From assembly GCA_024278345.1 (NCBI GenBank), contig JAJRTK010000102.1, positions 1-20,065 on the forward strand: DNA of 20,065 bases, given 5' to 3'. Below, piece after piece: positions 4,268-19,770 of this stretch. Made by a program: the position numbers and the translations under genes. Within the stretch, counting starts at the first letter, position 1. Each line of letters opens with the position of its first letter. This DNA is from a bacterium (GTDB lineage Bacteria > CSSED10-310 > JAJRTK01). The notes under the pieces were generated by a model. The model saw only the letters and a program-made list of their open reading frames with translations, did not search any database and was not told the DNA's origin.

Positions 4268-5473
4268 CTAGGCGCTTGGCCCCTTTTGGTAAACAAATTG
4301 GAGCAGGCGATTCAGGTGGATGATCCTCTGTTTTGCGGCATCGGTCCCCAGAGCCTGGAAAGCTGCCTTGAGGTCGTGGAGCGTCCGCAAATGGGAAAAA
4401 AGCTCCACGTCAGACAGTTTTTCACCGCCCGTGAGCCGTGCGGCGGTTCTCTCCAGGTCTCGGACCAGCTCTTCGAAGTCGATCTCGGCGGTTCCGGGGC
4501 GCTCCGCGCCGGGATGCTCGGCGTAGTAGACTTCGAGCTCCGGTTCGACGATGGTCTGGATGAGATCCATCTGGTTCTTGTGGTTCCACACGTAGCGCAA
4601 GAAGGCCAGATCGGAGCGATTGACTTCGTGCCGGCCGTCAAGGAGAGCGCTGGCGGCGAAGACTTTCAGGAGCTTCACCACCCGCCGGTCACTGATCTGC
4701 ACGCCTTCGCTCCGCAGGCGCACGACAAGATCCTTGTAGAGTGCGACGAAGGGGGGTGGAAAGCCGTTGAAGTCGGCCAGCCGGCGATGAACCGCCCGAA
4801 GCTCATTGGCCGTAATTCGGGGCTTGAGGTTGTTTTCGCTTCCAGATATCCGACTTGTCTCACCGGCCCATCCCACGCGCAGGAGGCTCTGAAAGTGGAA
4901 GGAATCAAGGTTGGCTGCCTCGACCCTCAGCAAAAATCGGTCGAAGATCGCGGCGAGAGTCTCGTCGTTGGGCACTTCGTTGGAGGCGCCGAAAAGGCTG
5001 ATGAGCGGACACGGGAGCATCTGGCCTCCCATGGAATAGCGACGCTCGTTGAGGAGAGTGAGCAACGAATTGACGATGGCGCTGTTGGCCTTGAAGATTT
5101 CATCAAGGAATGCGATCTCCGCACTGGGCAGCATGCCCTCGGTCCTGCGCTCGTAAATGCCTTCCCGGAACTTCGCGATGTCCACGGGGCCGAAAAGCTC
5201 ATTTGGCTCGGTGAATCGCGTCAACAGGTAATCGAAGTAGCGGGCGTCCACAAGGCGTGCGAACTGCCTGAGCAAAGCCGATTTCGCGGTTCCCGGAGGT
5301 CCCACAAGCAAGACATGCTCGTGGGCAACGGCGGCGACCAAGAGCACTTGGATGACCTCGCTCCGCGCCACGAACCGGCGGCCAAGGAGTTCACGGATCT
5401 CCTCAAGCCCCTGAATTCCCCTTCTGAAATCCGCCTCTCCCGGGTCGTTGAGAACTGTCCTCGCTTCACTCAT
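4268..5473 (-). CDS. MoxR/RavA-type AAA+ ATPase
   Basis: 401 aa, an AAA+ ATPase of the MoxR clade with RavA-like features, expected to act as a hexameric chaperone remodelling a partner protein. Visible motifs: Walker A GPPGTAKS (58-65), Walker B IAFLDE ending at Asp124-Glu125, sensor-1 Asn165 in GASNEVP, an arginine-finger candidate Arg179 in FDRF, and a sensor-2 type SDRR at 261-264. The region after about 290 is helical and variable, as in RavA-like proteins. ATG 5473 is chosen over the GTG at 5497 because GAGGAG (complement of 5481-5486) sits 7 nt upstream. It is the last gene of a three-gene operon, 20 nt after the preceding stop. MoxR proteins usually neighbour a von Willebrand A gene; none is present here. 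Confidence 0.93.
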   Translation of the reverse strand: MSEARTVLNDPGEADFRRGIQGLEEIRELLGRRFVARSEVIQVLLVAAVAHEHVLLVGPPGTAKSALLRQFARLVDARYFDYLLTRFTEPNELFGPVDIAKFREGIYERRTEGMLPSAEIAFLDEIFKANSAIVNSLLTLLNERRYSMGGQMLPCPLISLFGASNEVPNDETLAAIFDRFLLRVEAANLDSFHFQSLLRVGWAGETSRISGSENNLKPRITANELRAVHRRLADFNGFPPPFVALYKDLVVRLRSEGVQISDRRVVKLLKVFAASALLDGRHEVNRSDLAFLRYVWNHKNQMDLIQTIVEPELEVYYAEHPGAERPGTAEIDFEELVRDLERTAARLTGGEKLSDVELFSHLRTLHDLKAAFQALGTDAAKQRIIHLNRLLQFVYQKGPSA

Positions 5474-5480
5474 CCACGGC

Positions 5481-5486
5481 CTCCTC
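5481..5486 (-). promoter_or_regulatory. Ribosome binding site deciding the MoxR start
   Basis: GAGGAG on the minus strand, 7 nt before ATG 5473. It lies inside the coding sequence if the alternative GTG at 5497 were used, so it argues for the shorter protein. Confidence 0.65.
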
Positions 5487-5493
5487 GATATGC

Positions 5494-6246
5494 TCACTCA
5501 GACTCTGCTCGTTTGCCGCTGAACCGCTCTCGGAGCCTATTGAGCTCATGGACAAGAGAAGATGCGGCACCGTGGTCAAACTGGCCCAGCTTCACGATGC
5601 GATGGATGACTTCCAGGACCTTCGGCAAGTGACGTTGGCCAACCTCCCTCTCCTTTCCCACGATGACATGAAGCGAATACCGAGCCAGATCCGGGTTTCT
5701 TAGAACCACCGCCAGCCCGTCGAATTGGACCCCTGCCAGCCGGTCCAGCCAGGAAAGGGCCGTGAGAGGGCTCCGGGAAACAAGCCGCTCCAGCTCGAGA
5801 TAGACATCGAAATAACTCCTGGCCCTGTCCAGGAAAGGCTCGAAGCGCTGGAGCAACGCATGGTAAACGATCGCTTCTCCCGCTGTCCTAGAGACGGGGA
5901 TCTGCTGGATAAGCTCCTGGGTCCATTGGTGGCAAAGACCGTAAGACCACCCCATCTTCCGGGCGATTGGATGGCAAAGATAGAGCAGGTTGTGCAAGAC
6001 GCAAAGCAACCAAACCTCAACGGTCCCAAATGGAAGAGTTGCCTGAGCCCGGGGCAAGAGCGCCCCTGCCCAGCTCCCCACCTGCTGCTCGATGAGTTCC
6101 ATGGGAAGCTCGATTTTATCGACGTTCCGCACCAACTCCTTGGAGAACAGAGGAAACCGGATCTGAACAACCCCGCCGCCGAAGAGGGAGCGGACAAACT
6201 CCTGCAAGATCCGGCGCTGTCCGGAAAACGTCCAGGGAAAGAGCAT
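5494..6246 (-). CDS. Unknown helical protein, middle gene of the MoxR operon
   Basis: 250 aa, not recognised. It is predicted mostly alpha-helical, with hydrophobic and aromatic stretches such as VEVWLLCVLHNLLYLCHPIA (about 77-96), which may be a buried helix or a membrane-associated segment. There is no signal peptide and no catalytic motif, and the C-terminus (about 230-250) is charged. ATG 6246 is only 4 nt after the preceding stop, with a purine-rich GGGAGGGG upstream. The MoxR gene follows after 20 nt. This tight arrangement says it works with both neighbours, possibly as an adaptor or client of the ATPase. The frame is open upstream to 6345 but overlaps the previous gene. It could be a lineage-specific part of a MoxR ternary system; that is inference from position only. 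Confidence 0.78.
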   Translation of the reverse strand: MLFPWTFSGQRRILQEFVRSLFGGGVVQIRFPLFSKELVRNVDKIELPMELIEQQVGSWAGALLPRAQATLPFGTVEVWLLCVLHNLLYLCHPIARKMGWSYGLCHQWTQELIQQIPVSRTAGEAIVYHALLQRFEPFLDRARSYFDVYLELERLVSRSPLTALSWLDRLAGVQFDGLAVVLRNPDLARYSLHVIVGKEREVGQRHLPKVLEVIHRIVKLGQFDHGAASSLVHELNRLRERFSGKRAESE

Positions 6247-6250
6247 CTTG

Positions 6251-7807
6251 TCACTTCCCCTCCCGAGGGTTTTCAAGGAGCAATCGCCGACCAATCCTCT
6301 GCCCAAGGGTCGGCACGAACTCCAACTGCTCCACGGACGGTTCACGGGGATGGGACAAAAGCTCGATCCGCTGGGAATAGAACTTGGCCACGGATAGGCG
6401 AGTCATGGGTAACAATGCCCGTTCAGGAAAGTGCCAGGCCCCCTCAAAGGTCATCACAACGATTTCGCTTCTCATGGGACCGCGGAACATCTTCGACAAA
6501 AGCGAAGGCGGAGGGGAAGGCACCAAGCGGCTTCCCACGGGAAGATAGAGCTTGTCGTCAAGCCGCTTGAGCAAGATTCCCACGGGTAGGCAGCGCAAAG
6601 AGTCACTATGCCCCAAGATCACGCACCGATCAGTTCCAGCCGCCAACCGACAGCTCCCCAATACAAACTCGGGAAGCCTCTGGAGCAATCTCCGCAACAG
6701 ATCGAAATCCCCGGCCTCCACAAGGCACCCGTCGGCGGGCTCTTTTCTTCCGTTGGTCACGATGGCCACGCGGATCCCGAGCGCCGGCGGAGGTTCCGCC
6801 AAAGCCTTCATGGACTCGGGTTCCCCGCAGTCTACCATATCGAAATCCGGCAGTAGAGGAAAGAACTCAGGTCCTGGCAACCGCTCGGCAATCCCCCCTT
6901 CCCGGGCCAAAACCAAGAGTCCAGCCTCCGGCGCCAATTCGGGCATCGCCACCAGCGGCAAGGGGTGCTGATACCCAAGGGGAACGAGAACCCTTGGCAA
7001 AGCTGGAACGAGGATTTCGACGCCTGGAATCCGTTCCAGAGTCTGGGCAGGCATTCCGTCGAGCTTCTCCACCTTGATGAGATGAAAACTGCCGCCCTCG
7101 CCACCACGACGTTCCAAAGCTCTGTAGGCAGCCGCTTCCCCCCCGATACCATGCCTCGTCAGATAACCGGCTACCGCCCGGTAAAGACCGGAAGGAAACA
7201 AGAGAAACGCCCCCTCCTCCAACTCTTCGTCCGAAACGCGGATCAAGGGCAGGGAAAAAACGAGCTCACTGAGCACGAGCTTCCGAACCCTGGGATAGCT
7301 CAAGACTCCTGAAGGACGAAGCAGAGTCAGTGCAAGACCAGAATCAACCGAACCGGCGAAATCGTATCCGAAAGGCGCCTCCTCATCCCGAAAAGCGACC
7401 AGGGCGCCATCCCTCCCCACCAAAGCCTGTCCCCTCGCCAATGTTGCGGCGCCCAGCAGCCTTTCAACGTCTCTCGAGCTTCCAATGGCCAGCCGCAAGG
7501 CGTAATCCAACTTTCCCCTCGCGCTACGGAGCGACAGGACTTCCAGCTCGGACAACGAAACCCCCAGTCCCCCTTCCCGGCTGAACTGAAGGCGCAAGAA
7601 ACCAAGAAGATCCTTTCGCCGCGGAAACCTCAGAAGACATTTCTCCCCCACCACGACGCTCCGTTCATCGCGGTGAAGCCACGGACAAACGAGATCGCCG
7701 TCCGCCGCCACGACCCGAAGACTACCTGTTCCACTCACCACGCCGCGAGACCTGCAATTGAGGTTTTCTAGAAAGCCCCTATTCTCTCCACCATCAGTAT
7801 CATCCAT
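6251..7807 (-). CDS. Unknown 518-aa protein, first gene of the MoxR operon
   Basis: About 518 aa with no family I can name confidently. It lacks a signal peptide and transmembrane helices, is rich in short beta-strand-like segments, and is strongly leucine/arginine/proline-biased. Motif-like turns recur: VLVPLGYQ (about 274-281), CLPVGILL (406-413) and LYLPVGSRLVP (420-430), hinting at repeated or related subdomains. The aspartate/glycine-rich first 25 residues look unstructured, and the real start may be a GTG pair near residue 23. ATG 7807 has only a distant purine tract (AAGGGG), so the start is uncertain. It is the promoter-proximal gene of the operon and is followed after 4 nt by the 250-aa gene. 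The large partner in described MoxR ternary systems is often a multi-strand beta (propeller-like) protein; a relationship is a hypothesis that needs a profile search. Confidence 0.75.
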   Translation of the reverse strand: MDDTDGGENRGFLENLNCRSRGVVSGTGSLRVVAADGDLVCPWLHRDERSVVVGEKCLLRFPRRKDLLGFLRLQFSREGGLGVSLSELEVLSLRSARGKLDYALRLAIGSSRDVERLLGAATLARGQALVGRDGALVAFRDEEAPFGYDFAGSVDSGLALTLLRPSGVLSYPRVRKLVLSELVFSLPLIRVSDEELEEGAFLLFPSGLYRAVAGYLTRHGIGGEAAAYRALERRGGEGGSFHLIKVEKLDGMPAQTLERIPGVEILVPALPRVLVPLGYQHPLPLVAMPELAPEAGLLVLAREGGIAERLPGPEFFPLLPDFDMVDCGEPESMKALAEPPPALGIRVAIVTNGRKEPADGCLVEAGDFDLLRRLLQRLPEFVLGSCRLAAGTDRCVILGHSDSLRCLPVGILLKRLDDKLYLPVGSRLVPSPPPSLLSKMFRGPMRSEIVVMTFEGAWHFPERALLPMTRLSVAKFYSQRIELLSHPREPSVEQLEFVPTLGQRIGRRLLLENPREGK

Positions 7808-7957
7808 TCGCCATCGCGAAGCAACCCCTTTATTCTCTTTGTGTTGCGTCCCGCTCCCATCGGGCGCCATCCGGCACCCGCTACTCGCCATTTCCCCCCC
7901 TCTCTCCATCCATGGCCGGAAGGCCGCGGAGCACCGTCCCGATTTGGGCACAGCATC
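7808..7957. promoter_or_regulatory. Divergent promoter region between the MoxR and TPR operons
   Basis: 150 nt between two diverging operons, so both promoters are expected here, although no clean -35/-10 pair stands out. A copy of the dispersed repeat (7838-7856) lies inside it. Confidence 0.5.
7838..7856 (+). repeat. Dispersed repeat copy D
   Basis: A 19-nt stretch matching 16 of 19 positions of the block at 17612-17630 (TTTGGGTTGCCTTCCGCTC), with T-rich sequence in front as in the other copies. It lies in the divergent intergenic region. Confidence 0.4.
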
Positions 7958-9400
7958 ATGTCAAAAACCCGCCGAACCCCACCATCTCTTGCCTTCGCGT
8001 CCTGGACCGCAGCGATCCTCCTGGGGGCCGTTGCCGTGGCACAATCTCCCACTTCCTCTGGCGAAAGCCTGCTGGCCGAGGGCATCCGGCGACTGGAGCA
8101 GGACCAACTGGTGGAAGCCCGGCAGAAACTCCAAGAAGCCGCCGAGCTCCTCCCCGATCAGCTGGAACCGCTCCTGGCCCTAAGCCGCCTTTTCGAGGCC
8201 CAGGGCGCCTGGCTCCAGGCAATCCGGACAAGCAGGAAGGCGGCCGAACTGGCGCCGGACGATCCTCGGCCGCACTTGATTCTGGGCATGGAACTGGGTC
8301 GCATTGGCGCGATCTCGGCCGCCCTGGCAGAGCTGGATCGGGCCAGAAAGCTGGCACCGGCCGAGCCGACAGGCTACCTGGCCGCCGCCCTCCTACTCCG
8401 GGACACCAACCGGCGGGAAGAAGCGATCCAGCTCTTGGAGACCGCCATGGGCAAAGGCCTCCGGCAAGCCGATCTCTACGAGCAACTCTGCCTCCTTGAG
8501 CTATCGGAAAACCGGCCCGCAAGCTGCCGCCAGATGGCGGCCGGGGGCCTTGAGATCCACGCCTCCTCCGCCTCCCTCCGGTTCGTATACGCCCTGGCCC
8601 TGGCCGCCGACCCCAAAAGGCGGGAAGAGGCTGTCTCCACCTTTCTCCGCGCCCTTGATCTTGGTTTCGAGCCGGCGGGCCGCCTTCACCTCGAGCTAGG
8701 CAATACCCTGCTGGAACTGCGGCGCCTTGACCAGGCAGTGGATCACCTCCGGCAGGCGGTTCTTTTGCTTGAGAATTCGGCGGAAGCCCACTACAAACTG
8801 GCCATGGCGCTCCGCCTGGCCGGCGATCTGGATGGAGCCGTTGAACATCTCCAGAAGTTCAAGACCCTGAGCCAGCGTGCGGACAGCCAAGACTGGGATC
8901 GAAAAAAAGTTGGCGCGGCCCTGAACGAAGCGGAAAAACTGGCGCTTCGCAATGACCTGAAAGGCGCCCTGAAACGGGTGGATGCCGCCCTTGAGGAACA
9001 GACAAGACTTCCGGCGGTTCACCTGCTTCGGGGCAAGATCCTCTTTTCCATGGGCCGCCCGGCGGAGGCTCTGGAAAGTATTGAAAAGGCCCGCGGGCTC
9101 TCTCCGGGAAGTGCGGAGGCTCACCTTTTGGCCGCCCTTTTCCTCACGCGCCTCCGCCGGTGGGAAGAGGGCGAGAAAGCCGCACTCCTGGCGCTGGCCA
9201 TCGATCCAACGCTTGGAGAGGCTCACGAGCGTCTGGGGACCATCGCCGCCAATCAGGGACGCTATGAAGAAGCGGTCACGCAATTCAAGAAGGCTCTCGA
9301 GCTCGGCATCAAGAGCTCGTCTCTTCGGCTCAACCTGGCCGCCGCCCTGGAGCGCACAGGGCAAGGGGAGGAAAGCCGCCGGCTGTTGGAGGAAGAATGA
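7958..9400 (+). CDS. Exported tetratricopeptide-repeat protein
   Basis: 480 aa. An N-terminal signal peptide is likely: basic MSKTRRT, then a hydrophobic segment ending AVAVAQS near residue 30. The rest is built of roughly 34-residue helical pairs with TPR signatures, for example AAELAPDDPRPHLILGMELG and the C-terminal LAIDPTLGEAHERLGTIAANQGRYEEAVTQFKKALEL. TPR arrays mediate protein-protein contact, so a periplasmic scaffold role is likely and no enzymatic domain is visible. The start ATG 7958 has a weak ribosome binding site; it was chosen because it gives a standard signal peptide. The stop overlaps the next start as ATGA, so translation is probably coupled. TPR genes next to FG-GAP/ASPIC genes are a familiar pairing in Acidobacteriota. 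Confidence 0.87.
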   Translation: MSKTRRTPPSLAFASWTAAILLGAVAVAQSPTSSGESLLAEGIRRLEQDQLVEARQKLQEAAELLPDQLEPLLALSRLFEAQGAWLQAIRTSRKAAELAPDDPRPHLILGMELGRIGAISAALAELDRARKLAPAEPTGYLAAALLLRDTNRREEAIQLLETAMGKGLRQADLYEQLCLLELSENRPASCRQMAAGGLEIHASSASLRFVYALALAADPKRREEAVSTFLRALDLGFEPAGRLHLELGNTLLELRRLDQAVDHLRQAVLLLENSAEAHYKLAMALRLAGDLDGAVEHLQKFKTLSQRADSQDWDRKKVGAALNEAEKLALRNDLKGALKRVDAALEEQTRLPAVHLLRGKILFSMGRPAEALESIEKARGLSPGSAEAHLLAALFLTRLRRWEEGEKAALLALAIDPTLGEAHERLGTIAANQGRYEEAVTQFKKALELGIKSSSLRLNLAAALERTGQGEESRRLLEEE

Positions 9401-11235
9401 GCGAAGTTGCCAAGAGTTCCAACGGCGCCCGAAACCGGGTGCCGGGAATCATTTTGGGTGATGAGAGGCGACCGGCGCGCAGCGGAGGCGAGCGACGTGA
9501 GCGGAAGACAACCCAAAGGAGAAACAGGCTGCCGGCTCTTTCTTTCAGTCTTCGCCCTGGAATGGTTCTGGCGCTTCTCCTTCTGGTTCAACTGGCGGCC
9601 GTTTCCCATGGAAAGACCCCGGTTTTTCAGGAACGAGCGGAGGAGCTGGGCGTGGTTTTCCGGTACCGGAACTTTGCCACCGGCAAGAAGCTTATGCCCG
9701 AGAATATGGGAGCAGGCGTGGTTCTTTTTGACGCCAACGGCGATACGCGGCTCGATATCTATTTTGTCCAAGGCGCTCCTATCGTCGGCGGCCACCAGGG
9801 GGCACGCCCGAAAAACCGTCTCTTTATCCAGCAACCGGACGGGCGGTTTGAAGACGAAACCGCCAAGGCAGGTGTCGGTGACGATGGCTACGGGATGGGG
9901 GCTGCTTACGGAGATGTGGACGGGGACGGGGATCTCGATCTCTATGTGGCCAATTTTGGGCCTAACGTGCTCTATCTCAATCGGGGCGGCGGGAAGTTCG
10001 AAAAGCAGCCTGACGCAGGGGGTGCAAACTGCCCTCTCTGGAGCGTGAGCGCGGGTTTTTTCGATGCAAACGGGGATGGTCACCTCGATCTTTACGTCGT
10101 GAACTACCTGGATTTTTCCCTGGACAACCAGAAGTGGTGTGGCGATGCCCGGCGGGGGCTTCGAGCCTATTGTCATCCCGATGTCTACGATGGTCAGCCG
10201 GACGCACTCTATTTTGGCGATGGGAAGGGTCATTTTACGCAGGCTGGACGAGAAGCCGGGATTCCGGCAACTTCCAATGACAAAGGACTCGGAGTCAACT
10301 TCGCGGACTTCGATGGCAACGGAACGCAGGACATTTACGTCGCCAATGATTCCACGATGAACTATCTGCTTCTTTCCGATGGAAAGGGCCGATTCACGGA
10401 GAACGCTCTTTTGGCCGGAGTCGGCTTCAACGGCCAGGGAAGGGCGGAAGCCAGCATGGGAACGGCGGTGGGCGATCTGGATGGCGACCTCGGGCTGGAT
10501 CTTTTCCTGACACACCTGGACGAGGAGACCAATACCCTTTACCATCAGGAGGTGCCCGGCCTTTTCGTGGACGCCACGGAACGTGCCGGCCTTGCGGCGC
10601 CCAGTCGGCCATGGGTGGGATTTGGTGTCGTCTTTTTGGACTACGACCAAGACGGGGACCTCGACATTTTCCTTACGAATGGGCATATTATTGATAACAT
10701 TAAACAATTCGACCCAAAGCGTGCTTACCGGCAGCCCAGTCAACTCTTCGAGAACCAGGGGAGCGGTAGGTTCGTGGAGCAGAGTGGCCTGTTGGGGATT
10801 GGGGATCGCCTCGTGGGCCGAGGCGTCGCCGGGGGCGACCTCGACGGCGATGGTGACATCGACCTGGTGATCACCCAGAATGTCGGGCCGGCGCTGGTTC
10901 TCCTCAACCGCCTGGATCCGAAAAGGGGAGGCTCGATCCTCGTCGATCTCCGGGGAACAAAAAGCAATCCTCACGGTTTCGGCGCACGATTGGTCCTGAC
11001 TTCGGGCAAGAAAAAACAGATCCGGGAAGGCGGGACTTGTTACACTTATGCTTCCCAGGGCGACTTGGCTCTCCACTTTGGGCTTGGCACCGAAAAACGG
11101 GCCGAATCTCTGGTCATACGCTGGCCGTCGGGACAAGTTGATGACCACGGGCCTCTCAAGGCCGGGTTCCGCTATGAATTCACGGAGGGTTCCCAAAAAT
11201 TCGGGCGCCGTCCCTTTAAGACCCCGAGCCGCTGA
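9397..11235 (+). CDS. FG-GAP/VCBS propeller protein with C-terminal ASPIC/UnbV domain
   Basis: 612 aa from ATG 9397, which overlaps the TPR stop as ATGA with GGAGG 4 nt upstream. Seven calcium-binding-type FG-GAP motifs (DxDGDGxxD form) start near residues 111, 172, 222, 303, 359, 414 and 480, consistent with a seven-bladed beta-propeller. A CRTAC1/UnbV_ASPIC domain follows at about 512-582 (HGFGARLVL, LHFGLG, LVIRWPSG). A signal-peptide-like hydrophobic stretch sits unusually late, at 56-72 (MVLALLLLVQLAAVSHG). The first 55 residues are very basic and contain an inverted copy of a dispersed intergenic repeat (9486-9525). Translation may therefore begin later, but the only ATG there (9562) lacks a ribosome binding site. 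Likely exported and involved in adhesion or binding; the ligand is unknown. Confidence 0.9.
   Translation: MSEVAKSSNGARNRVPGIILGDERRPARSGGERRERKTTQRRNRLPALSFSLRPGMVLALLLLVQLAAVSHGKTPVFQERAEELGVVFRYRNFATGKKLMPENMGAGVVLFDANGDTRLDIYFVQGAPIVGGHQGARPKNRLFIQQPDGRFEDETAKAGVGDDGYGMGAAYGDVDGDGDLDLYVANFGPNVLYLNRGGGKFEKQPDAGGANCPLWSVSAGFFDANGDGHLDLYVVNYLDFSLDNQKWCGDARRGLRAYCHPDVYDGQPDALYFGDGKGHFTQAGREAGIPATSNDKGLGVNFADFDGNGTQDIYVANDSTMNYLLLSDGKGRFTENALLAGVGFNGQGRAEASMGTAVGDLDGDLGLDLFLTHLDEETNTLYHQEVPGLFVDATERAGLAAPSRPWVGFGVVFLDYDQDGDLDIFLTNGHIIDNIKQFDPKRAYRQPSQLFENQGSGRFVEQSGLLGIGDRLVGRGVAGGDLDGDGDIDLVITQNVGPALVLLNRLDPKRGGSILVDLRGTKSNPHGFGARLVLTSGKKKQIREGGTCYTYASQGDLALHFGLGTEKRAESLVIRWPSGQVDDHGPLKAGFRYEFTEGSQKFGRRPFKTPSR
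9486..9525 (-). repeat. Dispersed repeat copy B, inside the FG-GAP gene 5' end
   Basis: On the minus strand: GTTTC, TCC, TTTGGGTTG, T, CTTCCGCTC, then ACGTCGCTCGCCT. Copy A at 17607-17687 has the same blocks in order but with 44 nt between CTTCCGCTC and ACGTCACTCGCCT. It is read in frame as residues about 30-43 (GERRERKTTQRRN) of the FG-GAP protein. Confidence 0.6.
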
Positions 11236-11265
11236 GCTCTGGTTCCTTCCAGGCTGGAAACTCCC

Positions 11266-12972
11266 ATGCAACGACGAGCGCTTATGTTACCGGCACAAAA
11301 AGACTGTTTCATGATCTTGGCGGCAACCTGTCTCTCATTCTCCGCGGCACCCTTGCAGGCTATCCCGGCCACGCCGCCGAAAAGCACGGCGACCGCTGCC
11401 CCACAGCCGCCCGCCGAGACCGGGCCTCTGACTCTGGAGGCCGAGCTGGCGGCGGCATCGGGCAAGCTCAGCGAGCTTCCGCCAGAAATCCTCGACCACC
11501 TGGATGCCATGACCTTTCGCTGGCTCCGGGAATATGTCCCCTACATCATCACCCCTCGGGAACGAGAGATTTTCATTTCCCTGGAAACAACCGCGCAACG
11601 GCTCCGGTTCATCGAGAGGTTCTGGAAGCGCCGCGACCCCACTCCCGGGACACCGATCAACGAGTTCCGCGACGAGCACGTCCGCCGATTCTCTTATGCC
11701 AATAGACGGTTCGGCGCCGGCAAGCCAGGCTGGAAAACCGATCGCGGACGCGTCTACATCATGCTTGGAGCGCCGCAGGGCCGCCAATCCAACCCCATGG
11801 GGCGGCAAGGCGGTGAACGCGCCTCGGAGGTCTGGTCCTACAACGGTGTGAAGAGCCGAACTCTCGAGTCCAGCTTCGATCTGTCATTTGTCGATTTCAA
11901 CGACACGGGCGATTACCAAATCGTGTCGAACCTTGAGCTGGCGGCGCCCATCCGGAGTTATGTGGGCTATATCGGCGACCCTCTCGATCTCATCTCCCGC
12001 TCCCTCCAGGCTGACAAGATCCTGAACCCTGAAGACACCTACTACCAGCGGGAGCTCTTCAAGGCGAATAACCTTGCTCTTGATCAGTTCGACCTGATGG
12101 ACGATCTCGTGGCTATCCGCCAAGCAGCTCAGGAGACCGACCTCCCCAAGACCGAAATCGAAACTCACGTCCAGTTTTCCAACTTCCCGCTGGAACTTTC
12201 CATCGCCTATTTCAAGGCGGGAGGAGGCTTGACCCGGGTCCAATTGACCTTCACCCTTGACTTCTCCCCCATGAAATCCAAACTTTACCAGGAGCTCTAC
12301 TACTTCCATGCGGAGCTCCTGAGCCGCTTACACCAGGGCGAAGAACAGGGACGCATCATCGACCAACTCCGAGAAGACATTCCCTTTCAAGTTCCGGAAA
12401 ACGAGCTGAGCTCCGTCTCTCAAACACCGTTGGTCTACCAATACGAGCACTACGCCAAACCTGGAATCTACTCGCTGGAGCTCTTGGTGCGCGATGCCGT
12501 GTCGAGCCGTATCTCCGTGACACGAAAAAAGCTCGTCGTTCCCAATTTGGGAAGCCAGGGGCTCGGGATGAGCACTCCTCTTCTCTGCGAATCGATCCAG
12601 CAGCTCAAAGGGCCAGTGCCCGGAAACGGGAAGTTCCAGATCGGGGATCTTCGCCTCCTTCCCAAGGTCTCTGGCACGTTCCGCTCAAGTGAAACGATGT
12701 GGGCCTACCTCCAGGTCTACGGCGCGGCCAACGATGCAAGCTCCCAAACCCACCTGGAGCTGGACTACCGGATTTGGACCAAGGAAGGAGCTCTGCTCCT
12801 AAGGACTCCCACTCAGCGGGCAGAAGGGGCTTCAGGCGACTCCGTGGCACTCTACAGCGGCATCTCCCTCAGCCGGCTTCAAGCCGGAGCTTACGAGCTG
12901 GAAGTTCTTGTAAAGGACACCGTCTCTAAAAACCGGATCGTCCGGCGGGTCTCCTTCCAGGTGGGCAACTAA
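11266..12972 (+). CDS. GWxTD domain-containing exported protein
   Basis: 568 aa. A signal peptide is likely (MILAATCLSFSAAPLQA, residues 16-32), followed by a proline/alanine-rich linker (33-55). The domain at about 85-215 carries the defining GWKTD motif at 155-159 within PGWKTDRGRVYIMLGAP, preceded by the conserved FIERFWKRRDPTPGTPINEF (115-134). That is the hallmark of GWxTD-domain proteins of Bacteroidota and Acidobacteriota, whose function is not established. The remaining C-terminal part is beta-rich. The start may instead be ATG 11284 or 11311; no strong ribosome binding site distinguishes them. It follows the FG-GAP gene by 30 nt and ends just before a terminator, so it closes the operon. 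Confidence 0.9.
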   Translation: MQRRALMLPAQKDCFMILAATCLSFSAAPLQAIPATPPKSTATAAPQPPAETGPLTLEAELAAASGKLSELPPEILDHLDAMTFRWLREYVPYIITPREREIFISLETTAQRLRFIERFWKRRDPTPGTPINEFRDEHVRRFSYANRRFGAGKPGWKTDRGRVYIMLGAPQGRQSNPMGRQGGERASEVWSYNGVKSRTLESSFDLSFVDFNDTGDYQIVSNLELAAPIRSYVGYIGDPLDLISRSLQADKILNPEDTYYQRELFKANNLALDQFDLMDDLVAIRQAAQETDLPKTEIETHVQFSNFPLELSIAYFKAGGGLTRVQLTFTLDFSPMKSKLYQELYYFHAELLSRLHQGEEQGRIIDQLREDIPFQVPENELSSVSQTPLVYQYEHYAKPGIYSLELLVRDAVSSRISVTRKKLVVPNLGSQGLGMSTPLLCESIQQLKGPVPGNGKFQIGDLRLLPKVSGTFRSSETMWAYLQVYGAANDASSQTHLELDYRIWTKEGALLLRTPTQRAEGASGDSVALYSGISLSRLQAGAYELEVLVKDTVSKNRIVRRVSFQVGN

Positions 12973-17755: not shown

Positions 17756-19072
17756 TCAATAGTAGGCGTAAAAGGCCAGGTAAAACGTGTCCGGAATGGC
17801 CCCGAACTCCGTCTTGATCCCGGGCGGCTCACTGCCTGCCGCGAAAACCGGCGAAGCTCCGAATGACAGGTAGCTCCCCACCTTGAAGAGCAGATCGTCC
17901 GTGACACTGTACTCGAACTCGGGGTTCAGCAGAAAAGATCCGTCGCCGAGGTTCACGAGAACTCCGCCGCGGAGGCTCAAATAACTTGTGGCCTGGAGTT
18001 GGGCGGCCGGCGCCAGATAGTGGCGGCCAAGGTAAAAAATCTGGCCGCGGCGGAAGGCGGGGCGGGCGGCGGTTTCGAGGTATCCATCGGGGTCGCTGCT
18101 CCCGAAACCGGAGTAATGATATTCCAGGCTGAGGATCGGTCCCGCCTGAAGTTTCCGTTCGATACCGGTGACGACGCGGACGAAAGAGTCTCCCGCCGGA
18201 CCGGCCGCCAGAGCGGACTCCAGGGTCCAGGCACTCTCCACCCACCAGCCCACGGGCCCAAGATCCCGGGCAAGATCGAGTCCCAACATCAGATCTTCGT
18301 CGATCACTTGGCCGCTCAACACCAGATCGGTGTCCATCAGGTGGGTCCGTATTCTTAGGGCAACAGCGCTCTCGGCTGGATGGAAATCGGGCCCGGCCAC
18401 CCATAGGAGATCGACCTCTGAAAGCTGCCCCACCGACGCAGTGAGCCGAACCGCGTCCACGCCCCTTTTTTCTTCCTGGTCGATGTCGAGGTAGCTCCAA
18501 GGGGAAATGAGGTCGGTGGGATTGACAAACCGGCCGCTGCCCCACGAAATGGCCTGGCGGCCAATTTTTACGGTCACTAGGCCCACGGGAAAGGTCGCGG
18601 AAAGCCGGTCCAGATCGTGGATGAAGCGGAAGCTCTCGGCGGGGCCGCCCCCGGCCAGGGTCGGAGAAAAATCCGCCACCCGGAACGGATGCCCCTCCAC
18701 GGGCGAGCCAAAACCGAAGGTGGACTGAGAAAAGGGGTCGTGGGAAACAGTCCGAGGCCGCAGCTCCCAATGGAGCTCCAGATCGACCGAAGCTGGGAGC
18801 CCCAAGAAGAGCTTGATCCGGAACCGCCCCAAGTTGGCCCCCTGCCAAGTCACGTGGGAAAACTCACTTCCCTGGCTGCCATCCGCCAGCGGATAAAGGC
18901 GTTCAGCCAAGAAGAAATCCTTGAAATAACCCTCCAGATCCAGGCTCACCCGATCCGTGGAAAAGATCCCTACCGCCGGGGCGGAGACGGGGAATCCCAA
19001 AAAGGGAATCACCAGGAGCAAAGGGAGGAGGCGGCCACCGGCTCTGACGGAGGCACCTGCACCACCAGGCAT
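17756..19072 (-). CDS. Predicted outer-membrane beta-barrel protein coupled to an ABC ATPase
   Basis: 438 aa from ATG 19072. A signal peptide is likely (hydrophobic LLPLLLVIPFLGFPVSAPA, about 15-33). The conserved stretch GRQAISWGSG...NPTDLISP at about 171-191 matches a signature I associate with DUF1302-like and other uncharacterised beta-barrel proteins. Alternating hydrophobic strands continue to an aromatic C-terminus (FYLAFYAYY). The ATG overlaps the stop of the ABC ATPase gene as TGATG, indicating translational coupling; a GTG one codon upstream (19075) is an alternative. The pairing suggests that the ABC system and this outer-membrane protein serve one envelope pathway, such as lipid or lipoprotein traffic. 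No permease or periplasmic component is visible, and these may lie beyond the window. Confidence 0.8.
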   Translation of the reverse strand: MPGGAGASVRAGGRLLPLLLVIPFLGFPVSAPAVGIFSTDRVSLDLEGYFKDFFLAERLYPLADGSQGSEFSHVTWQGANLGRFRIKLFLGLPASVDLELHWELRPRTVSHDPFSQSTFGFGSPVEGHPFRVADFSPTLAGGGPAESFRFIHDLDRLSATFPVGLVTVKIGRQAISWGSGRFVNPTDLISPWSYLDIDQEEKRGVDAVRLTASVGQLSEVDLLWVAGPDFHPAESAVALRIRTHLMDTDLVLSGQVIDEDLMLGLDLARDLGPVGWWVESAWTLESALAAGPAGDSFVRVVTGIERKLQAGPILSLEYHYSGFGSSDPDGYLETAARPAFRRGQIFYLGRHYLAPAAQLQATSYLSLRGGVLVNLGDGSFLLNPEFEYSVTDDLLFKVGSYLSFGASPVFAAGSEPPGIKTEFGAIPDTFYLAFYAYY

Positions 19073-19770
19073 CACGACGCATCCCGCCGGACATCGCTGG
19101 AGATCTGGCCATCTTTGAGAAGAACCAGGCGTCGGGCATAATCCATGATCATCTGATCGTGAGTGGAGAAGAGAAAGGTGACGCCTCGGCTTTCGTTGAG
19201 CTCCCCCATGGTCTGAAGAAGGGCTTCGCCGGTAGCGGAATCGAGGTTCGCCGTGGGCTCGTCAGCCAGGATGAGTTCCGGCTTGGTGACGATGGCCCGG
19301 GCGACGGCGACGCGCTGCTGTTGGCCTCCGGACAGTTCGGCGGGGCGGCGATCCTCCATGCCGGAAAGGCCGACCTCTTTCAGAACCTCGGCAACACGGC
19401 GACGGCGCTCCGCGAAGGAGACTCCCTGGAGGACCATGACATATTCGACATTCTCCGCAACCGTGAGAACCGGAACCAGATTGTAGGCCTGGAAGACAAA
19501 ACCGATGTGGTCGCGCCTGAGGTCGGAGCGCTGGGTCTCGCTGAGGCTGGCCAGAGGGCGGCCCTTCACTTCGACGGCGCCGCTGGTCGGAAGATCAAGG
19601 CCTCCGATGATGTGAAGCAAGGTGGTCTTCCCACTGCCGGACGGCCCGGCAAAAGCCGTAAACTCCCCTCTTTCGATCACCAGGTCCACGCCCCGCAACG
19701 CACGGACTTCCACCTCACCCGTACGGTAAGTTTTCTGGATCTTCTCAAGCTTGACAATCAGTCGATTCAT
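19072..19770 (-). CDS. LolD/MacB-type ABC transporter ATP-binding protein
   Basis: 232 aa, a cytoplasmic ABC ATPase of the subfamily that energises FtsX-like permeases (lipoprotein release, MacB-type export). Motifs: Walker A GPSGSGKT (42-49), Q-loop Gln94 in GFVFQAYNL, signature LSGGQ (146-150), Walker B LILADEP (166-172) with Glu171, and H-loop His204 in STHD. The length is typical of the family. ATG 19770 is chosen because GGGGA lies about 6 nt upstream and the LolD-like motif [15 protein letters not shown] begins there; a TTG at 19782 would add four residues. It overlaps the downstream outer-membrane gene. The cognate permease is not in the window on the upstream side, where at least 295 nt lack a minus-strand gene. 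Confidence 0.93.

Follow-up and report, generated by a model that had tools for sequence, protein, structure and literature searches.

The 20,065-base window is a complete contig (C20) of the source genome (G000) and carries an operon of three genes on its minus strand. These encode a 518 amino acid (aa) protein, termed X7, a 250-aa protein, termed HEL, and a MoxR-type AAA+ ATPase. An earlier note on this DNA had described three tightly packed genes with gaps of 4 and 20 nucleotides (nt), and the open reading frames exist as described. The features of the operon are as follows.

6251..7807, minus strand: X7 gene, 518 aa, from ATG 7807 to a stop at 6251; alpha+beta protein assigned to the fvmX7 family (PF20005)
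5494..6246, minus strand: HEL gene, 250 aa, from ATG 6246 to a stop at 5494; all-alpha protein, perhaps distantly bpX4-like
5479..5486, minus strand: Shine-Dalgarno-like AGGAGG, about 6 nt ahead of ATG 5473, read from the sequence
4268..5497, minus strand: MoxR AAA+ ATPase gene (bpMoxR, PF20030), P-loop GPPGTAKS; likely start ATG 5473, stop 4268

X7 is followed after 4 nt by HEL, and HEL after 20 nt by MoxR when the latter is read from ATG 5473. An alternative MoxR start, GTG 5497, overlaps the HEL stop codon, however ATG 5473 is the likelier start because AGGAGG sits 6 nt ahead of it. At the other end of the operon, residues 1–26 of X7 are predicted to be disordered in the AlphaFold model, and the X7 orthologues start at about residue 28. 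The first 26 or so residues are thus probably outside of the folded protein, and the true X7 start may be as far as about 28 codons downstream of ATG 7807. The three open reading frames are judged to be genuine genes and not chance occurrences, since orthologues of each are found in tens of genomes with the gene order kept.

X7 displays a match to the Pfam family fvmX7 (PF20005, "FtsH ternary system domain X7") with an E-value of 3.2e-10 and 40 bits, where the cut-off is 24; the match to Pfam bpX5 is weak (E-value = 0.07). A profile made from Myxococcota orthologues, with the window sequence left out, gives X7 an E-value of 8.6e-69. X7 is therefore classed as a divergent fvmX7 protein. The C-terminal half of the X7 family aligns with bpX2 proteins (hhalign probability 97.5, E-value = 8e-12) and is assigned as homologous to them. 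The AlphaFold model of X7 is an alpha+beta structure with ferredoxin-like modules (predicted local distance difference test score, pLDDT, 79). A fold search of the PDB with this model gave no convincing relative, the best match (Z = 7.6) covering a ferredoxin-like module only.

HEL has no match in Pfam. It is recognized by comparison with Myxococcota HEL sequences, where phmmer gives an E-value of 4e-6 and a HEL profile built without the window scores the window protein at 1e-14; a genome scan with the 250-aa sequence itself as query found nothing. Thus the description of both partner proteins as unrecognized in the earlier note stands for HEL with respect to Pfam and does not stand for X7. 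The AlphaFold model of HEL is all helix (pLDDT 88, predicted template modelling score 0.86), and the PDB fold search gave no convincing relative (best Z = 5.9). The models agree with the earlier description of a beta-rich and a helical protein, and neither of them has a von Willebrand A (vWA) fold, which rules out X7 and HEL as vWA proteins in disguise. Comparison with the bpX families, which for X7 gave the clear bpX2 relationship, is less decisive for HEL. HEL and bpX4 proteins are colinear over about 200 columns with an hhalign score of 28.5, and none of 60 shuffled decoys scored above 17.1; the HH probability, however, is only 4–17%. This is suggestive of a distant resemblance to bpX4. HEL as a detached N-terminal helical domain of a vWA protein was also considered and is unsupported (hhalign P = 0.53).

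The MoxR sequence matches Pfam bpMoxR (PF20030) with an E-value of 8.7e-77, however PF20030 also matches E. coli and archaeal proteins and the profile alone is not specific. The P-loop GPPGTAKS is found at residues 66–73; Walker A, the Walker B sequence FLDE and the DRF motif are all conserved. Identity to Myxococcota orthologues reaches 55% over nearly the full length. The match to the NCBIfam RavA model (E-value = 1.5e-51, 176 bits) is below the cut-off of 681.

Scanning genomes with three MoxR queries gave 80 loci and revealed the family to which the operon belongs. About 56 of the 80 are from Myxococcota, or from genomes labelled Deltaproteobacteria, with MoxR proteins 47–55% identical; the remainder are planctomycete, verrucomicrobial, Bacteroidota and Chloroflexota loci and one from Wallbacteria. 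At many Myxococcota loci the gene order is X7, helical protein, MoxR, vWA and TPR/HEAT, the helical protein having about 380 aa, the vWA protein about 480 aa and the TPR/HEAT protein about 590 aa. The DxSxS motif is present in 21 of 25 Myxococcota vWA sequences. All five genes are together in Nannocystis exedens, N. pusilla and Enhygromyxa salina and are scattered in Polyangium fumosum. This conserved neighborhood, which the earlier note had proposed as a check, identifies X7, HEL and MoxR of the window by sequence similarity as orthologues of the first three genes of the Myxococcota operon. Several Polyangiaceae-type loci (L043, L044, L067 and L080) display the MoxR orthologue alone beside TsaB-like, dUTPase-like and peptidase M16 genes, although X7 and vWA are present elsewhere in genomes of this type.

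The earlier note had reported no vWA gene locally, and the vWA profile indeed has no match anywhere on the window contig. The same profile has one strong match in the source genome, at positions 24285–25688 of a second contig, C236 (E-value = 2.1e-94). The vWA orthologue there has an intact metal ion-dependent adhesion site (MIDAS) motif, DSSASM (DxSxS). The profile match ends near the stop codon, leaving room for a short tail only, and Pfam shows no propeller in this open reading frame. Further proteins are encoded downstream of the vWA gene in the same direction: one of 135 aa is helical, another is a TPR-Ser/Thr kinase, and another is a TPR protein whose J-like domain is degenerate, PPD replacing HPD. 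The TPR protein matches the TPR/HEAT family with an E-value of 2e-21. In this region (L122, 8150–13628) the kinase has N-terminal TPRs with HRDLKPGN and DFG intact, and a VKOR/DsbA-like gene follows the J-domain TPR gene. The kinase was rejected as a regular partner of the system: of 44 vWA loci, 5 have a kinase motif at a distance of 3 kb or less, a number that chance might give in kinase-rich myxobacteria.

Co-inheritance of the components was analyzed in 189 genomes spread evenly over one phylum, that of genome G253, taken to be Myxococcota from the relatives with which G253 groups in the X7 tree. X7 is found in 27 of the 189 genomes and vWA, with a threshold E-value below 1e-100, in exactly those 27; in five further genomes the vWA profile matches only weakly (1e-21 to 1e-28). 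The probability of this coincidence by random placement is 1 in 10^32.6, a figure that ignores phylogeny. HEL is present in all 27 X7-bearing genomes. When genomes are chosen by the presence of MoxR instead, vWA is found in 27 of 29 and X7 in 28 of 30. X7 and vWA are within 10 kb on one contig in 11 of the 27 genomes and on different contigs in the other 16. G511, a nearly complete genome of 5 contigs, is such a split case, and here X7 and vWA are each far from the ends of separate multi-megabase contigs. Where the set is split, HEL usually accompanies X7 and vWA is often with TPR, while MoxR joins either pair or stands alone.

Pairwise distances of all five proteins are correlated (r = 0.93–0.98). 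Median identities between orthologues are 59% for MoxR, 43% for vWA, 40% for TPR, 33% for X7 and 23% for HEL, which bears out the earlier view of a RavA-like MoxR with fast-diverging partners related to the MoxR-vWA ternary systems. In quick trees with long branches, the X7 and vWA sequences of the source genome are placed outside of the Myxococcota clade, and its MoxR is at the clade base. Almost every genome has a single copy of each component, and none was seen fused to a hypervariable module. The co-inheritance, the correlated distances and the tree positions together lead to the conclusion that the five-gene set behaves as an old unit and not as a recent import.

The Pfam families fvmX7 and bpMoxR take their names from the MoxR-vWA ternary systems that Kaur and colleagues described, which are characterized by a GxxxTAKS P-loop, a divergent vWA protein, and tandem-AAA FtsH proteins or beta-propellers, and which are proposed to act in biological conflict (Kaur et al. 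2020, PMC7159879). Among the papers listed by a literature search on the Pfam family names, all were unrelated. The beta-propeller system (bpX0–bpX4 and bpMoxR) shares with the present set the MoxR with a GxxxTAKS P-loop and the position of a small helical gene just before MoxR, bpX4 in that system and the possibly related HEL here. The bpX2 gene, which lies between MoxR and vWA there, is related to the C-terminal half of X7, and the vWA domains are homologous (hhalign probability 97.9). It differs in several respects: no propeller is recognized after the vWA domain here, X7 has an additional N-terminal half, a separate TPR/HEAT protein is present and not the bpX3-TPR-propeller protein, and the genes here are at two loci.

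In the FtsH ternary system (fvmX7, ivWA), fvmX7 likewise adjoins bpMoxR and a vWA protein with a helical N-terminal region (loci L019 and L020). At L019 (2786–10453, genome G067) the divergent vWA is fused to an FGE-sulfatase domain and accompanied by an FtsH-type AAA, MoxR and fvmX7; the G067 MoxR is closest to a Chloroflexota MoxR. However the FtsH system includes, as its third component, a protein with a pair of FtsH-type AAA+ domains, and none was found in the source genome, which is 88% complete; the best matches cover a single AAA core only (query residues 386–589). RavA-ViaA of Escherichia coli is alike in pairing a RavA-type MoxR with a vWA protein, but the MoxR here, as noted above, is far below the RavA cut-off. 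Neither X7 nor HEL is known to belong to RavA-ViaA. By content the set is best called a MoxR-vWA ternary-type system that is neither the FtsH nor the beta-propeller subsystem, a variant with no vWA gene in the same cluster and with its cognate vWA in trans on C236. The suggestion in the earlier note of a chaperone system new in kind does not hold, though the fit to either named subsystem is not exact.

Orthology to the Myxococcota operon, the vWA gene in trans and the strict co-inheritance of X7, HEL and vWA support the conclusion that the operon is, with good probability, the X7-HEL-MoxR half of a predicted five-component MoxR-vWA machine, whose vWA and TPR half is located on C236. Some points weigh against it. 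The correlation of distances among related genomes partly reflects shared species history. The TPR protein on C236, a partial match with a J-like domain in place of HEAT, is perhaps not strictly orthologous. The assembly is a draft in 550 contigs, and the two loci are separated by at least about 11 kb if the contigs abut. A machine divided between contigs would be an artifact if C20 and C236 came from different organisms, and the fragmented assembly and an estimated contamination of 2% could be taken in that sense. This is very improbable, as the GC content of the two contigs is equal (0.589 and 0.587), X7, vWA and MoxR are similarly deep in their three trees, and searches with fvmX7, HEL, vWA and MoxR found no second copy of any part in the source genome. 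The earlier note had suggested, as one possibility, a self-sufficient system without vWA, where the vWA function is taken over by the 518-aa or the 250-aa protein. A contig devoid of a vWA gene and a MoxR packed only with X7 and HEL would fit that explanation, but orthologues of X7 and HEL coexist with vWA in the Myxococcota operons, X7 never occurs without vWA in the 27 genomes even when the two are unlinked, the source genome has a full-length vWA orthologue with DxSxS, and neither structural model shows the fold. The takeover is thus largely refuted and retains only a very slight likelihood.

With respect to function, known MoxR-vWA pairs are assembly factors, and the general MoxR-vWA mechanism is drawn from the same source (PMC7159879). 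By analogy with these pairs, MoxR would form an ATP-driven hexameric ring and the vWA protein would use its MIDAS site to capture a substrate peptide. The X7, HEL and TPR proteins may serve as adaptors or scaffolds, either keeping hold of the substrate or linking it to the ring, and ATP hydrolysis would then remodel or release the substrate complex. More speculatively, the Ser/Thr kinase beside the C236 vWA gene may regulate vWA in the source organism.

Two roles for such a five-part machine were weighed, and both are compatible with its composition. A role in anti-phage defense or other biological conflict, in which the fast-diverging X7 and HEL would act as sensors or effectors, would be in keeping with the membership of fvmX7 and bpMoxR in systems proposed for conflict, with X7 and HEL being the fastest to diverge, and with the patchy distribution at the phylum level (27 of 189). 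It appears rather unlikely: no effector domain was found in the five conserved genes, PADLOC matches are generic kinase models for the neighboring kinase only, the window neighbors are ordinary and form no defense island, and the scattered genes are unlike a compact mobile cassette. The other role, to which we would give about an even chance, is that of a lineage-specific assembly chaperone which, like RavA-ViaA or NorQ-NorD, matures one dedicated complex and is unrelated to conflict. Components that are single-copy, co-inherited and effector-free with correlated distances fit this role, as does the activity of known pairs as assembly factors, but no substrate is linked in the neighborhood, and most of the genomes sampled in the phylum lack the machine, which indicates that it is not generally essential. 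An ordinary complex as the client is favored over phage defense because of the single copies, the lack of effectors and the scattered genes. The fuller proposal, of a distinct effector-free MoxR-vWA-X7-HEL-TPR assembly machine that is single-copy and co-inherited in some Myxococcota families and one unrelated phylum, with its genes drifting apart on the chromosome, is put forward tentatively, at somewhat below even likelihood.

The neighbors of the operon in the window are a ferritin-like protein, an esterase, TPR, FG-GAP/UnbV and GWxTD proteins, a TonB-type receptor, MscS and an ABC ATPase. Positions 7841–12972 hold a row consisting of a divergent TPR gene, an FG-GAP/UnbV-ASPIC protein and a GWxTD-domain protein. 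The divergently transcribed TPR gene (7841–9400) was rejected as the TPR component of the system, as the TPR/HEAT profile matches nothing on the window contig. The proteins encoded at 276–2237 (654 aa) and 17759–19075 (439 aa) have an outer-membrane-like appearance and no Pfam match.

The gene neighborhood alone would lead to the reading of a MoxR system without vWA, and the whole-genome co-inheritance leads to one that draws vWA from another locus. This serves as a warning that a part absent from an operon is not the same as a part that is absent. If the assembly machine proposed above is real, part of what are termed MoxR-vWA ternary conflict systems would be dedicated assembly chaperones. 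The five co-inherited proteins offer a clean set for the question of defense versus assembly, with culturable hosts such as the Nannocystis, Enhygromyxa and Polyangium species named above.

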